Below are positions 6,606 to 17,571 of a DNA stretch of 64,000 bases, piece after piece. Location of the stretch: contig CASFKG010000002.1 of the NCBI GenBank assembly GCA_949295325.1, positions 202,047-266,046 on the forward strand, in the 5' to 3' direction. Below the pieces are notes generated by a model. That model saw only the letters and a program-made list of their open reading frames with translations, searched no databases and was not told the DNA's origin. The translations under genes and the position numbers were made by a program. This DNA is from an uncultured bacterium. GTDB lineage: Bacteria; Bacillota_I; Bacilli_A; RFN20; CAG-826. How positions within the stretch are numbered: position 1 is the first letter of the stretch; each line of letters begins with the position of its first letter.

Positions 6606-6937
6606 ATGCCTTGGCTTTTGCCTATGTATATGCTGCGAAAGCCGGCTGTTGCCGGGTATTTCCCGCCTTTTTCCTAGATGACTTAGGGGGTTGTCTTTTG
6701 CTACCCCATTTTCTGGTTTTTGCTTTCAAAGCACTTCTATGTTTGGACTGGCATGGCACTTATGCCTGCCGGCAATTCCCTTTCCGCATAAAGCGCCTGA
6801 TTAGCGGCATTTTGAAGACGAATTGTAAATTCTCTTCGCGGAAACGGGCGAAAAACCGCACATAACGCGGTGGATTCGCGGTTTTGGCAATCAAGTCACT
6901 ACACCTATGCGGGCGCGTGGCGTATAGTCTCGGCGTC
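6606..6937. other. Gene-free divergent region between endonuclease I and the secreted-protein operon
   Basis: About 330 bp with no convincing gene; the open frame at 6596-6865 lacks coding character and homology. It holds an AAAACCGC/GCGGTTTT hairpin (6852-6885, long loop) and the two outward near-leaderless promoters (6596-6601 minus and 6923-6928 plus). Nothing else was seen. Confidence 0.5.
6923..6928 (+). promoter_or_regulatory. -10 element (TATAGT) for the secreted-protein operon
   Basis: TATAGT ends nine bases before ATG 6938 and 45 bases before the alternative ATG 6974. No TTGACA-like -35 is evident. Confidence 0.4.
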
Positions 6938-7603
6938 ATGGTGAGAAGAAGCGCAAGAAGGAGTCAAAGTGTCATGGTCAAGGCCATCGGCTTTCTTCTT
7001 TTGCTTTCCGCCTGCAGTCTTTCCGGCATCGCCTTCTCGGCCTGGCAGATAGGGGAGGAGGCCAATGCTCCGGCCGGCCAATTGGAAATAGGGGTTGGCG
7101 ACGTTTTCGAAGTTGATCGTTTTGGTAAGGTAAACTCGATTATCACGCTTCCAGTATGCGAAGATGGTTTTATTGATGATGGCTTGCTTGTTTACGACTT
7201 CCGAGTCGAGATATCCATATTGCTTGAAATCAATGAAATGCGTGATTACCTGGGGATATCATCCACTGATCGGTTCAATATCACCTGTTTATTCAAGATG
7301 TCGTTTATAAATCCAGGATCCCTTCTGTTGCCGACGGGTCTGTCTGCTCCCATGCCAGGCATTTTCCAATTTGACAATGATTCGTCTAAATTGGATTCGC
7401 AATCTGGTTCATGCATGCTTACATTCAGTGGTACCTCTGGTGCCATCGAAGCGAATGTCAGGCTTTTGGCTTCTTTTACCGTCGATTCTTCTTATTCCAG
7501 CAAAGACTCTTTCGAACCGGTTTATCAAGCATTCAAATCAAATCCGGCGGAATTTACCTGTTCCTTAGACATTGTTCTTGCAAAGGATGGTGAAGCAGTG
7601 TGA
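6938..7603 (+). CDS. Secreted protein of unknown function, first gene of a two-gene exported pair
   Basis: No family recognised. The N-terminus is a signal peptide: basic region, hydrophobic core (GFLLLL...), then IAFSAWQIGEE at the presumed cleavage area. The remaining ~170 residues are rich in Ser, Ile, Phe and Val with few charges and look like a small all-beta exported domain. Two starts compete. ATG 6938 has a TATAGT nine bases upstream (near-leaderless). ATG 6974 has a well-spaced SD (AAGGAG, 6958-6963) and gives a 209-residue protein. The stop overlaps the GTG start of the next gene (GTGA), implying coupled translation and a joint role. The SA-W-x-I junction recurs in that partner. DNA is AT-rich relative to the genome. 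Confidence 0.6.
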   Translation: MVRRSARRSQSVMVKAIGFLLLLSACSLSGIAFSAWQIGEEANAPAGQLEIGVGDVFEVDRFGKVNSIITLPVCEDGFIDDGLLVYDFRVEISILLEINEMRDYLGISSTDRFNITCLFKMSFINPGSLLLPTGLSAPMPGIFQFDNDSSKLDSQSGSCMLTFSGTSGAIEANVRLLASFTVDSSYSSKDSFEPVYQAFKSNPAEFTCSLDIVLAKDGEAV

Positions 7604-10008
7604 AACCTTCGACTTTGTCTCGTCTTTTATTTGGCTGTTTCATTATCATTGCGATGACTTTTGTTCCCGCCAGTGCATCATGGAAAATAGTTGGAACTTC
7701 CTATGGTGCCGAGGTACCTTCCACCAGTGACAAAGCCGTCGCCTACATTTCTTCCACCCATCAGTATTTCACAACGATTGAAAGCGCAGTTACTGCCGCT
7801 AATAAATTGGCTAACGCTTCTAACCCGCAAACTGTCTATGTGATACCAGATATAAGTAGCATTCAAAACATGAATGGCACTTATGTCCGGCGACCAATAG
7901 AAATTAAACATGATTTCACCGTCGGAGATTATGTTACCCTCGCTTTGCCTTATTCTGGAGAAACCACTTCGGAGAATCCCGGAAATTTCGGAACCGATTT
8001 TTCCGATTCAAACCAAAGTTTAGAAGCAACTAAATTAAAAACAGAGGTCTTGCTTGGGAACATAGAGGAAGGGGAAGAAACGGGTCGCGGTGTAGTAATG
8101 ACTATAGAACCTGAGGGAAAATTGATCGTCGGTGGACAGATCGGTACCCAAACTTTGACCGCCGGTCAAGGCATGACCACCGGTCTATATTCGCAAATCA
8201 CGCTCGCAAGCGCCGACTATGATCTTGCCGCTGGAAAAGGATTGCCAATCAACGAACTCAGTGGAGCAAGCATAGTATCATATGGGGATGTCGTTTGTTA
8301 CGGATACATAAAGCCCGAAGCTGAGGACCAGGCCGATGACGGAGGTTCCTCTTTTCGGATGTTCGGCGGTAATTTGGAAATGCCTCTTGCTGTTTATGAT
8401 TTTCCAGGAGGAAATGCAACTGCCGGTATGTACTACGGAAGCGCTGTAAAGGCCATGTTTGCGACACAGGGTTACATATTTCCGCTAAATGTCTTTGATT
8501 TTCCCAATATAAGCTGCCCTTCGTTTATTCATTACGGTGCCAGCGTAAATGTGAATGTTTCTCTTTGGATAAACACGGCCGGCAAAATGGTTTCGTCCAT
8601 AGTCCCATTAATCAGTTCCGGAGGAAGCGGCATTTTCAACATGAATTCATCGAATTCGTATTTGAAATATGATTACAACCCACATACCTGCATAAATGGA
8701 AGGGGATATACCAAAAGCGATAGGGCAACAGCCTCGACGGCAGCATCGCCAACAAAAATTGATATATATGGTGGTGCCAACCTATCCAATATTTCGGTTA
8801 ACAATATCGATTTGCCAATCGTTGGCGTCCGCACTTTGTCCACCCAAGGCATATTCATGCCATTTTCGTATAAATTCGATATAAATCTTGTTACTGGCAA
8901 TTACCGCTTCCCGGTACTAAGCAAATTCCTTCCGGGCTGCAGTGTTCGCATAGAAAAAGACGCCGCAGTTACGCTTTTCGGAGATACGATTTTTTATCCC
9001 AATGGATTGTCTGCATATATCAATGGAGGCTATGCCTATCCGAAAAATTTACCTGCTGCGAAGTTTGTAAACAACGGACGCCTTTATGTTGGGGCGTCTT
9101 TTGGGGGATATGTCGAGACCGAAGCGGAGGGTGCGGTCATATCCTTCATGGGCAATTACTGGTCTGCCAGTTCTCTAGATGCTTCCGGTAATGTTGATTT
9201 GGATTCAAATATTATGAATAACATATCTACTGGAACAACTTCAAGAAACGCTACGGCCGATATCATTTCCAATGCTTCTTTTTCGGAAAACCACAATTTG
9301 TCAGAAGTAGGAAATTATGTTTTTGTTTCTGAGATGTATGACGATGGAAGATTTGGATTCCGGGGAACCAATGCTTTCGATGTTTCGATTTCCCGCGAGC
9401 CTTGGCTTGATGGAACTACCGATAGGACTACCACGTACGAGATATACCATAACGGCGTTAAGGTAAATGGCATGGACATAACACTCAAAGTGAGCATTGG
9501 GGATACCATTGAATTTAGAAATATCAGCAATGCCGCATATATAGAAAGCGGAACGGATCTAATTGATACTAGAGCGGGTGGCAGCAAAACATTTACCATC
9601 AGCACCGGTGCCAACTTCTATGTCGTTCCCCCTAGTCTTCTTAACGGCGACAATAGATTCGTTATCAATATCGCAAACACTAGAACAAAGCCTGCTTTTT
9701 GGGGCGACAACGATGTAGATATTTCTATTTCAGCTGATTCGCCGGGAGCTTCGACTGTTAATGTTACGGTCGAGGATATGGACGGGAGTGGCGAAAATGC
9801 AGTTGTCCATTCTGAAAGCGTCGATTACGGCTTTGGCATATTAAGGGTTGGCGATTTAATTAGGCTTTATGGCTTGAAAACCGGTCAGGGATGGCGGGGA
9901 AAAGAAACGGTAATTGATGGTGTTACTGTTGACGATGACTATTACACATTCACGTTTACAAAGGAATACTATGGTTCCGCTATTTCGGTTGTTTGCCAAT
10001 TGTCCTAA
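7600..10008 (+). CDS. Large secreted repetitive beta-rich protein (possible adhesin or surface beta-helix)
   Basis: 802-residue exported protein. Signal peptide with hydrophobic core FGCFIIIAMTF and junction ASASWKIVG. The segment at about 45-85 (AYISSTHQYFTTIESAVTAA, then a TVYVIPDI strand) resembles the opening of parallel beta-helix surface proteins. The rest is Gly/Asn/Ser/Thr-rich with many short beta-type runs and few Lys. No LPXTG, C-terminal membrane anchor or catalytic motif was seen, so it is probably released or held by another partner. It starts at GTG 7600 overlapping the upstream stop, so it is translationally coupled to the small secreted protein. AT-rich composition and the absence of a known family suggest a fast-evolving or acquired host- or surface-interaction module. 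Function unknown. Confidence 0.65.
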   Translation: MKPSTLSRLLFGCFIIIAMTFVPASASWKIVGTSYGAEVPSTSDKAVAYISSTHQYFTTIESAVTAANKLANASNPQTVYVIPDISSIQNMNGTYVRRPIEIKHDFTVGDYVTLALPYSGETTSENPGNFGTDFSDSNQSLEATKLKTEVLLGNIEEGEETGRGVVMTIEPEGKLIVGGQIGTQTLTAGQGMTTGLYSQITLASADYDLAAGKGLPINELSGASIVSYGDVVCYGYIKPEAEDQADDGGSSFRMFGGNLEMPLAVYDFPGGNATAGMYYGSAVKAMFATQGYIFPLNVFDFPNISCPSFIHYGASVNVNVSLWINTAGKMVSSIVPLISSGGSGIFNMNSSNSYLKYDYNPHTCINGRGYTKSDRATASTAASPTKIDIYGGANLSNISVNNIDLPIVGVRTLSTQGIFMPFSYKFDINLVTGNYRFPVLSKFLPGCSVRIEKDAAVTLFGDTIFYPNGLSAYINGGYAYPKNLPAAKFVNNGRLYVGASFGGYVETEAEGAVISFMGNYWSASSLDASGNVDLDSNIMNNISTGTTSRNATADIISNASFSENHNLSEVGNYVFVSEMYDDGRFGFRGTNAFDVSISREPWLDGTTDRTTTYEIYHNGVKVNGMDITLKVSIGDTIEFRNISNAAYIESGTDLIDTRAGGSKTFTISTGANFYVVPPSLLNGDNRFVINIANTRTKPAFWGDNDVDISISADSPGASTVNVTVEDMDGSGENAVVHSESVDYGFGILRVGDLIRLYGLKTGQGWRGKETVIDGVTVDDDYYTFTFTKEYYGSAISVVCQLS

Positions 10009-15572: not shown

Positions 15573-16310
15573 ATGAAGATAACCCTTTTGTTTCCGGTCA
15601 AAAACCAAAGCCGGAAACTGCTCGAAAACCTCAGGGAAACGGTAATACCCTATTTCGACGCGGCCGGCGTGACCTACGACGGCATCATCGCCGCAAGCGG
15701 CTCCACGGAAGAGGAATACCGGCGGCTGGAGGAAGGCCTGAAGGATCTTCCGATGAATTTCAGCCTGCTTCCCTACGACCCGGTGCCGGGGAAGGGCCAC
15801 AACGTGCGTTCGGGCCTATTGGCCGCGACGGGCGACTACGTCCTCTTCATGGATAGCGACATGTCGACCGGTCTAGACTGCTTCGAGGCCATGAAGCCCT
15901 ATATCGGGAAAGCCGACATCGTGGTGGCCAGCCGCTACGCGGAAGGCAGCAAGATAACGACGAGGCAGCCCCTGGCCCGAAGGATCGTAAGCAAGGGCTC
16001 GAGGATAATAATATCCGCGATGTTCCGCTTCGGGCTCACCGATACCCAGTGCGGGTTCAAGCTCATCCGCGCCTCGGCCGGGAAGAAGATGGCCAAGGTG
16101 CAGGTGGTCGACGGCTTCGCCTTCGACTGCGAGTACCTCTATTACGCCAAGCTTAACGGCCTCCAGGTCGCCGAAGTACCCTGCACCTGGGAAAACGACG
16201 AGGACTCGACCCTATCGGCCTTCAAGGCCTCGGTCGCCTTCTTCTTCGACTTGCTTAGGATAAAACTCCACAGGAAAGACTACATTAGGGAGGGAAAAGA
16301 TGCTGATTGA
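15573..16310 (+). CDS. Family 2 glycosyltransferase (dolichyl/undecaprenyl-phosphate sugar transferase type)
   Basis: 245-residue GT-A fold enzyme: N-terminal LLFPVKN strand, GKGHNVRSGL (73-82), and the metal-binding DSD at 94-96 in FMDSDMST. The later CGFKLIRAS and FAFDCEYLY segments are typical of polyprenyl-phosphate glucosyl/mannosyltransferases. It lacks clear transmembrane helices, so it would work at the inner face of the membrane. Its last 11 bases overlap the start of obg. The sugar donor and acceptor cannot be read. Confidence 0.8.
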   Translation: MKITLLFPVKNQSRKLLENLRETVIPYFDAAGVTYDGIIAASGSTEEEYRRLEEGLKDLPMNFSLLPYDPVPGKGHNVRSGLLAATGDYVLFMDSDMSTGLDCFEAMKPYIGKADIVVASRYAEGSKITTRQPLARRIVSKGSRIIISAMFRFGLTDTQCGFKLIRASAGKKMAKVQVVDGFAFDCEYLYYAKLNGLQVAEVPCTWENDEDSTLSAFKASVAFFFDLLRIKLHRKDYIREGKDAD

Positions 16311-17571
16311 CAGAGCGGTGGTGGAATGCCGCGCCGGGAAAGGCGGCGACGGCTCGATTTCCTTCCGCCACGAGAAATACGTCGAATTCGGGGGACCTGA
16401 CGGCGGCAACGGCGGAAACGGCGGGGACGTGGTACTGAAGGCCAATAACGAGACCTCGACCCTTTTCAACTACCGCCACGGCAAGGCCCTCATCGCCGGT
16501 GACGGCGGCAAGGGCGACAAGAAGCTGATGCACGGGCGTAGCGGCGAGGACTACGTGGCCTACGTCCCTCCCGGAACGGCCGTCTACAGCGAATCCGGCG
16601 CCCTTTTGGCCGACCTTAGGAAGGAAGGCGACGAAGCCGTGATCGCCCGGGGCGGCAAGGGCGGCAAGGGGAATGCGATGTTCAAGAGTTCCCGCAACCG
16701 CGTCCCGCGGATCGCCGAAAACGGCGAACCCGGCGAAACCGTCAGGGTCGTCCTCGAACTCAAGATGCTTAGCGACGTCGGCATCGTCGGGCTTCCGAGC
16801 GCCGGCAAGTCGACTTTCATAAACCTCATCAGCCACGCGGGGGCCAAGACCGGCGACTATCCCTTCACCACCCTGGTGCCCAACCTGGGCGTGGTCACCT
16901 ACGAGGACGGGACATCCCTGGTCTTCGCCGACATGCCGGGCCTCATCGAAGGCGCCGCGAGCGGCAAGGGCCTGGGCCTAAGTTTCCTCCGCCACATCGA
17001 AAGGACCCGGGTACTGGTGCATCTGGTGTCGATGGAAGAAGGGCGGGACGCCTACGGCGACTTCCTTGCCGTCCGCAAGGAACTAGCGGCCTACGGGGCC
17101 GATCTCGAAAAGCGGCCCTACATCGTCGTCGCCAGCAAGATGGACGAAGAAGGGGCCAAAAGACGCAAGGAAGAGTTCGAGAAGCGGAGCGGCGAGCACG
17201 CGATCGGATTGTCGAGCTATACCCGGGAGGGGGTGGAGGAAATACTTTCGAGGGCCCGGGAACTCTGCTCGACGACCCCTTTCTTCCCGCTCAAGGGGAG
17301 CAAGGAGGAAGAAGGCGGGCTCAAGGTCTACGATGCCCACCGGAAGGAAGCCCCCTTCCTCATCACCCATCCCAAGAGCGACCTCTTCGTCATCTCCGGC
17401 GAGGAGGTGCTGAGGCGTTATGCCTCCATGAACCTCAGTACCGACGAAGGGGTGGCCCGGCTCATCGGCTACCTGAGCCGGCTCGGGGTGGACGAGGCCC
17501 TGGCCAAAAAAGGCGCCAAGGAAGGCGATACCGTCCAAATTGGCGATTTCCAATTCACCTACAGCGAGTAG
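16300..17571 (+). CDS. obg: GTPase Obg/CgtA (50S assembly)
   Basis: Ribosome-associated GTPase for large-subunit maturation and stress control. Three parts are visible: the Gly-rich Obg fold (about 1-158, including GGPDGGNGGNGG near 31), the G domain with G1 GLPSAGKS (164-171) and G3 DMPG (211-214), and the C-terminal OCT domain (about 345-423) found in Gram-positive Obg. Length 423 is typical. SD GGGAGG precedes ATG 16300, which lies inside the end of the glycosyltransferase gene. Obg upstream of ruvAB reflects Bacilli gene order. Confidence 0.95.
   Translation: MLIDRAVVECRAGKGGDGSISFRHEKYVEFGGPDGGNGGNGGDVVLKANNETSTLFNYRHGKALIAGDGGKGDKKLMHGRSGEDYVAYVPPGTAVYSESGALLADLRKEGDEAVIARGGKGGKGNAMFKSSRNRVPRIAENGEPGETVRVVLELKMLSDVGIVGLPSAGKSTFINLISHAGAKTGDYPFTTLVPNLGVVTYEDGTSLVFADMPGLIEGAASGKGLGLSFLRHIERTRVLVHLVSMEEGRDAYGDFLAVRKELAAYGADLEKRPYIVVASKMDEEGAKRRKEEFEKRSGEHAIGLSSYTREGVEEILSRARELCSTTPFFPLKGSKEEEGGLKVYDAHRKEAPFLITHPKSDLFVISGEEVLRRYASMNLSTDEGVARLIGYLSRLGVDEALAKKGAKEGDTVQIGDFQFTYSE

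Follow-up and report, generated by a model that had tools for sequence, protein, structure and literature searches.

What do two overlapping genes of no recognized family, whose exported products begin alike, do for an uncultured gut bacterium? The genes lie on the forward strand of a 64,000-nucleotide (nt) stretch, here called the window, from contig CASFKG010000002.1 (positions 202,047 to 266,046) of the three-contig, 1.10 Mb genome GCA_949295325.1 (Bacilli_A; RFN20; CAG-826). The first gene (6938–7603) encodes a small protein of 221 residues if translation begins at the ATG at 6938 and a shorter one if it begins at the ATG at 6974; the true start is uncertain, and the better Shine-Dalgarno sequence, judged by eye, precedes the second candidate (AAGAAGGAG). 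The other gene (7600–10008) encodes a large protein of 802 residues. An earlier note, made from the sequence alone, had pointed out that both proteins carry the same short motif just after the signal peptide, and proposed that this motif may be a dedicated processing or sorting signal and that the proteins may form one surface structure. Our favored reading, to which we assign a probability of about 0.68, is that the two genes form a single translational unit for a surface module that depends on SipW.

The gene structure agrees with the description in the earlier note, which gave the proteins as about 220 and 802 residues long, AT-rich and of no recognized family. Both reading frames are intact, and those ending at 7603 and starting at 7600 share the sequence GTGA (7600–7603), which holds the stop codon of the small gene and the start codon of the large one. 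From this overlap we infer that the genes are translationally coupled and form one unit. A scan for sigma-70 promoters and terminators gave a result under the shuffle mean. Guanine-plus-cytosine (GC) content is 45.8% in the small gene and 44.0% in the large gene, compared to 57.9% in the whole window, and only 2 of 206 sliding segments of the large gene's size, a set that includes those over the gene itself, are as low. Searches of Pfam and NCBIfam with both window proteins returned no family over its cut-off.

The two motifs, FSAWQIG and SASWKIV, align at the predicted cleavage site (the cut is marked ↓). In the small protein the junction reads A-F-S↓A-W-Q-I (7031–7051, within AFS↓AWQIG, with the tryptophan codon at 7043–7045), and in the large protein it reads A-S-A↓S-W-K-I (7669–7689, within ASA↓SWKIV, with the tryptophan codon at 7681–7683). 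Both have small residues at P3 and P1 and tryptophan at P2′. The most fitting interpretation of the motif is a SipW-type cleavage site, [AG]-x-[ASG]↓x-[WYF]-x-[ILVF], whose P2′ residue is aromatic, as it is in Bacillus TasA. The junction is the best-conserved part of the small protein and is kept in relatives: only three columns (L21, F33 and W36) are invariant in a 10-protein alignment of the small family, and the junction accounts for two of these.

We tabulated 48 junctions from pair members and from proteins encoded beside sipW genes, placing each in a protein first found by homology or position. P2′ is aromatic in every one (W in 28, Y in 12, F in 8), and P1 is always S, A or G. Alanine occupies P3 in 26 junctions and glycine in 21; P4′ holds V, I, F or L in 40, and P2 holds F or Y in 32. 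These counts include some near-identical orthologues and out-of-frame small genes, and leave out loci fetched later. One large-protein row (L023) was mis-indexed in the table; by eye it reads A-F-S↓M-W and fits the motif. The small gene of L093 was excluded; near position 6890 of that locus its P2′ codon is TGA, an in-frame stop that accompanies the gene's poly-G tract.

Published work on signal peptidases bears on this pattern. The 143 verified substrates of E. coli LepB include not one with an aromatic P2′ residue, and aromatic residues at this position are reported to impede the enzyme (PMC10269814). TasA is cut at TWA↓AF, which places W at P2 and F at P2′; it is resistant to LepB and depends for its processing on the endoplasmic reticulum (ER)-type peptidase SipW (PMC10269814). 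In our own control, a script asked whether any [AG]-x-[ASG] site was followed by an aromatic P2′ residue; this was so in 38 of 39 family members, compared to 16 of 28 other signal-peptide-like open reading frames (ORFs). On inspection, 17 of these 28 proved to be further pair members or SipW-type proteins (14 of them flagged). Among the remaining 11, a small and rough set, two have the aromatic residue; one of these is apparently cytosolic and the other is a lipoprotein. Additionally, the strict DNA pattern for S-A-W-x-I has 24 matches in the source genome, compared to 9 for a control pattern, and the script placed only the window's small protein in a signal-peptide context.

The source genome encodes one SipW-type peptidase, at positions 16237–17238 of its contig C2, far from the window pair. 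It scores 58 bits against TIGR02228 (cut-off 51.85) and, by its profile scores, is of the SipW type and not the Bacillus equivalog. Two exported proteins are encoded directly upstream, with junctions AAA↓TWIL and AMA↓AWII. The earlier note had suggested looking for such a peptidase and for further motif proteins, and the genome has both, side by side. A profile built from 31 signal peptides, including those of the window pair and of the two sipW-adjacent proteins, had four hits in the source genome at E ≤ 10, namely these same four proteins; as all four were in the profile, this shows only that the search found no fifth candidate. Across the genus, 35 of 37 genomes match TIGR02228 at E ≤ 1e-4, 16 of them over the cut-off. 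A match over the cut-off is present in 12 of the 13 genomes with a large gene and in 4 of the 24 without (Fisher p 1e-5), and because the species are related and the test ignores relatedness, the p-value is only a guide. Additionally, in C. perfringens, SipW is required for secretion and polymerization of BsaA (PMC7395162). The idea that the shared junction is a dedicated processing signal is thus well supported: a SipW-type peptidase is present, the adjoining exported proteins have the same junction, and the junction is conserved in the small family and persists in relatives. SipW would be the enzyme that cuts it.

The surroundings of sipW vary within the genus. In G017 (L118, 4091–7654), two exported proteins with a more TasA-like junction, VAYFNSH, are encoded near a SipW-type gene, so both junction types are present in the genus; a 10-nt G tract lies about 600 nt upstream of them. 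G033 has a 9-nt G tract (L117, 4726–4734) roughly 50 nt ahead of the first of its sipW-adjacent substrates, where a promoter or leader may lie. At another locus (L025, 3154–3903), a small protein of the SipW type (TGFAAWELS) is encoded, and no large partner was seen next to it.

The small and large genes are a conserved module in the genus, the group within which we examined pairing, poly-G tracts and SipW linkage. A profile of the large family matches 14 of the 37 genus genomes; the match in one of them (G026) is a Hint-tail fragment with stops only. At the level of the order, 64 of 279 genomes and 20 of 56 genera have a match, in some cases covering the Hint end only. Named relatives of the large protein, at 13 loci, belong to metagenome assemblies that carry the labels uncultured Bacilli, Firmicutes or bacterium, with one Bacillales and two clostridial assemblies. 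Among 24 large genes of the genus, found by homology in the fetched loci and counted without two fragments and a weak match (G022:C10:17433), 23 have a small gene immediately upstream. The exception, G010 (L097), lies in a sipW cluster, in which the large homologue, two proteins of the sipW-adjacent kind and the SipW-type gene follow one another. Twenty of the 23 homologous pairs overlap and the other three have a 2-nt gap. The overlap is 4 nt in 13 pairs and otherwise 1, 8 or 16 nt, or 98 nt in L095, a disturbed case measured in the frame that holds its junction. Three more loci (L119, L120 and L121) have a pair-like arrangement and the junction, but the large-family profile does not recognize their large proteins, so we did not count them.

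Structure prediction gave a large-protein model made mostly of strands (mean predicted local distance difference test score, pLDDT, 63.6; predicted template modelling score, pTM, 0.64). In VIA-align, residues of about 46–580 (7735–9339) matched TibA (Z 9.9), Ag43 and AlgE6 (both 9.2), phage tailspikes (8.5–9.0) and PfbA (7.5), and residues of about 592–680 (9373–9639) matched Gram-positive pilin and adhesin domains (Z 6.1–6.7, root-mean-square deviation 2.2–3.0 Å); by the tool's own warning, a Z below 8 possibly reflects just a common arrangement. The large protein is thus predicted to be a beta-helix followed by a pilin-like beta-sandwich. The small model matched mainly beta-sandwiches of adhesins and pilins (Z up to 6.0), and the small protein is predicted, with low confidence, to be a beta-sandwich. 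The small family had no match among solved structures by sequence. The earlier note saw its idea as endangered if no other exported protein had the motif and the folds were those of unrelated enzymes. Other motif proteins exist, and the models resemble surface proteins and beta-helices that include some enzymes.

The favored reading draws directly on the junctions, the peptidase gene, the pairing, the overlap and the conservation of each, and the following mechanism would account for them. Both precursors would be exported through Sec and cut by the genome's ER-type, SipW-like peptidase. This enzyme would tolerate aromatic residues flanking the cut, to which bacterial signal peptidase I is poorly suited. 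Each mature protein would then begin with a small residue followed by [WYF]-x-[ILVF], and this shared start could double as peptidase site and inter-subunit strand. In TasA fibers, the N-terminal strand of the mature subunit (residues 28–38, with hydrophobic contacts by F29 and I32) enters the next subunit as a donor strand, and the N-terminus of TapA resembles it (PMC9674648). By analogy, the small beta-sandwich might pair with itself or with the large beta-helix through the shared N-terminal strand, giving a sortase-free fiber or adhesin of small subunits with the large beta-helix as its possible binding part. No sortase motif was noticed by eye. The constant pairing and the TasA/TapA precedent make it plausible that the two proteins form one surface structure.

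Several points weigh against this reading. The peptidase scores only 52.5 bits against the Bacillus SipW model NF046067 (cut-off 190). Below its cut-off, TIGR02228 also matches 13 of 14 control genomes at E ≤ 1, E. coli included, so the weak matches in the genus may be ordinary signal peptidase I; one genome with a large gene (G031) has only such a weak match (30.9 bits). The curated SipW-substrate signal model TIGR04088 has no match in the source genome even at E ≤ 10. In PMC10269814, the tested cause of LepB resistance in TasA is the P2 tryptophan more than the P2′ residue, whose role is said to need further work. The small protein is poorly conserved: its sequence, used alone as a query, retrieved matches from 6 of the 37 genus genomes. 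It has no sequence link to TasA in Pfam or among sequences of the Protein Data Bank (PDB; both at E ≤ 1). Its model is poor (pLDDT 57.4), and Foldseek returned nothing for either model at E ≤ 0.001. The TasA fiber 8aur aligns with the small model at Z 4.6 over 132 residues, one of many rows near that Z; because many of these rows are unrelated proteins, we do not claim the jelly-roll fold of TasA. Some of the beta-helix matches are enzymes. Finally, the reading does not account for how the large protein is retained at the cell.

Relatives of the pair have two features that the window copy lacks, the first of which is a poly-G tract. In 387.5 kb (the window and 25 loci) there are 12 runs of at least 8 G/C or at least 9 A/T, and nine of them fall within the signal-peptide region of a small gene, corresponding to nine of the 21 small genes there. 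These G tracts are 8–11 nt long and end 48–54 nt ahead of the P2′ codon. The basic start region is in frame in L026 and L100, and a start codon with a basic n-region, the likely start, is in another frame in L022, L093, L095, L098, L099, L101 and L102 (L095 also has an alternative in-frame start). The nine do not include the tracts of L119, L120 and L121, which were picked up by a pattern search. This mixture of in-frame and out-of-frame tracts is the pattern that slippage would leave and suggests phase variation; we consider slipped-strand phase variation of the relatives' small genes probable from their sequences. Given the overlap of the small and large genes, a single slip could switch the two proteins jointly. 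The pattern search had no match in the source genome. In the window copy, the 135 nt leading up to the junction contain no run of 4 or more G, and the window as a whole contains no run of 8 G/C. Having no tract, the window copy was rejected as a phase-variable gene.

The other feature is a Hint domain, which ends 19 of the 24 genus large genes. Four lack it (the window copy, L018, L019 and L126), and L127 is cut by a contig end. At loci L020–L026 and L092–L102 the large gene's C-terminus consists of a Hint domain and then a conserved tail of about 80 residues. A profile of these C-termini matched solved Hint-fold proteins: PDB entries 6tmm and 6y75 (deposited as an ADP-ribosyltransferase) at about 1e-9, Hedgehog (6tyy) at 1.2e-4 and a bacterial intein-like domain at 0.0026. 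Six of eight members matched Pfam Hint at E ≤ 0.1, and the single-sequence scores shown are below the cut-off. The N-terminal cysteine and the block-B histidine are present in all 22 distinct Hint domains that include this part, a set to which loci beyond the genus contribute three; two fragments without the Cys/His part were excluded. No Hint domain was found in the source genome at E ≤ 0.001, and the window copy, which has none, was rejected as a Hint protein. The window protein, like the short forms in G024 and G031, stops about where the Hint cysteine of the long forms begins. A short form may therefore equal a processed long form, and the window protein may be such an equivalent. The G024 and G031 short forms are intact, have a similar end point, and share 41% and 36% local identity with the window protein. 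The short-form pair at L018 (G024) is preceded, at a distance of about 300 nt, by a Hint-tail fragment with a 139-residue open frame (about 7249–7554), perhaps a remnant of a long form.

These observations bear on three other explanations. The large protein might be a secreted polysaccharide-active enzyme of the beta-helix lyase or epimerase type, the small protein its accessory, and the SipW signal merely the export route. The matches to AlgE6, to PL6 lyases (Z 7.1–7.5), to AlgG (6.8–7.3) and to phage tailspikes fit this idea. The adhesin beta-helices of TibA and Ag43 score equally well, however, no enzyme family was found for the window proteins in Pfam or NCBIfam, a pilin-like stretch follows the beta-helix, and relatives carry Hint domains and poly-G tracts, so we regard an enzyme as unlikely on the present models. 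We also think it improbable that the window copy is a decaying, non-working remnant of a Hint-bearing, switchable surface protein, as its lack of both features, the absence of a Hint match in its genome and its strongly different GC content could suggest. Both of its frames are intact and both junctions are kept; short forms make up four of the 24 genus large genes, and those of G024 and G031 are likewise intact and end near the same place.

Far less credible is the explanation that the junctions are alike by chance and both proteins are ordinary signal peptidase I substrates. The motif is short and the curated substrate model finds nothing, as this would have it, but the junction holds two of the small family's three invariant columns, P2′ is aromatic throughout the 48 tabulated junctions, and the same junction recurs beside sipW. 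The E. coli LepB substrates and the small script control (38 of 39 family members against 2 of the 11 remaining ORFs) contrast with it in the same direction. Because of this invariance, the tabulated aromatics, the sipW neighbors and the LepB contrast, we rejected a chance motif.

If the SipW-dependent surface module is real, SipW-dependent matrix and fiber systems reach beyond Bacillus and Clostridium to uncultured gut Bacilli with small genomes and involve a very different partner protein, and the pair is a new variant of such modules. This would explain a motif that otherwise looks odd and would suggest a sortase-free route to switchable surface structures. The Hint and poly-G layers of the relatives add to the interest of the pair, and a Hint domain here would make Hedgehog-type self-processing testable as a mechanism of bacterial surface attachment. 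One could go further and imagine a new Gram-positive surface class in gut Bacilli, in which a SipW-exported small subunit and a beta-helix adhesin are coupled, switched together by slippage of a poly-G tract in the small subunit's signal peptide and joined by the N-terminal strand that they share, with the long form cut by its Hedgehog-like Hint domain and covalently attached or released without sortase, and with the window copy as a locked-on, Hint-free short form whose end is near the presumed Hint cut of its relatives. We offer this full scheme as speculation and consider it doubtful.

How does the pair compare with known systems? Among the matches listed in open-licence literature, a further search of titles and abstract beginnings showed no such system, those for poly-G phase-variable surface genes did not mention SipW, and no paper joining SipW and a Hint domain was found. 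Poly-G phase-variable surface genes, for example those of Neisseria and Campylobacter, resemble the relatives in having a coding tract of 8–11 G in the gene of an exported protein, in or out of frame. The relatives differ in that their tract lies within the part of the gene that encodes the signal peptide; this gene is the first of a coupled pair and belongs to uncultured gut Bacilli. The window copy is tract-free. Like Hedgehog and bacterial intein-like precursors, the relatives' C-termini match solved Hint-fold proteins by profile and keep the first cysteine and the block-B histidine in 22 of 22 cases. Unlike Hedgehog precursors, their N-terminal parts and tails of about 80 residues have no Hedgehog match, their activity is putative, and the window copy has no Hint domain.

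The beta-helix adhesins PfbA, Ag43 and TibA are like the window's large protein in being exported and, as predicted for it, beta-helical; the resemblance is at the level of fold only (Z 7.5–9.9), with no sequence relation found. The closest counterpart to the pair is the tapA-sipW-tasA system of B. subtilis, together with TasA and CalY of B. cereus and BsaA of C. perfringens. The common features are aromatic residues near the cut, an ER-type peptidase, partner proteins with similar N-termini, a proposed beta-sandwich subunit and the absence of any sortase motif noticed by eye. In contrast to that system, the window pair has no detected sequence similarity to it and lies far from sipW, and its genes overlap. 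The partner is a predicted beta-helix protein of 800–1150 residues, and the relatives add to this arrangement a Hint domain and poly-G tracts.

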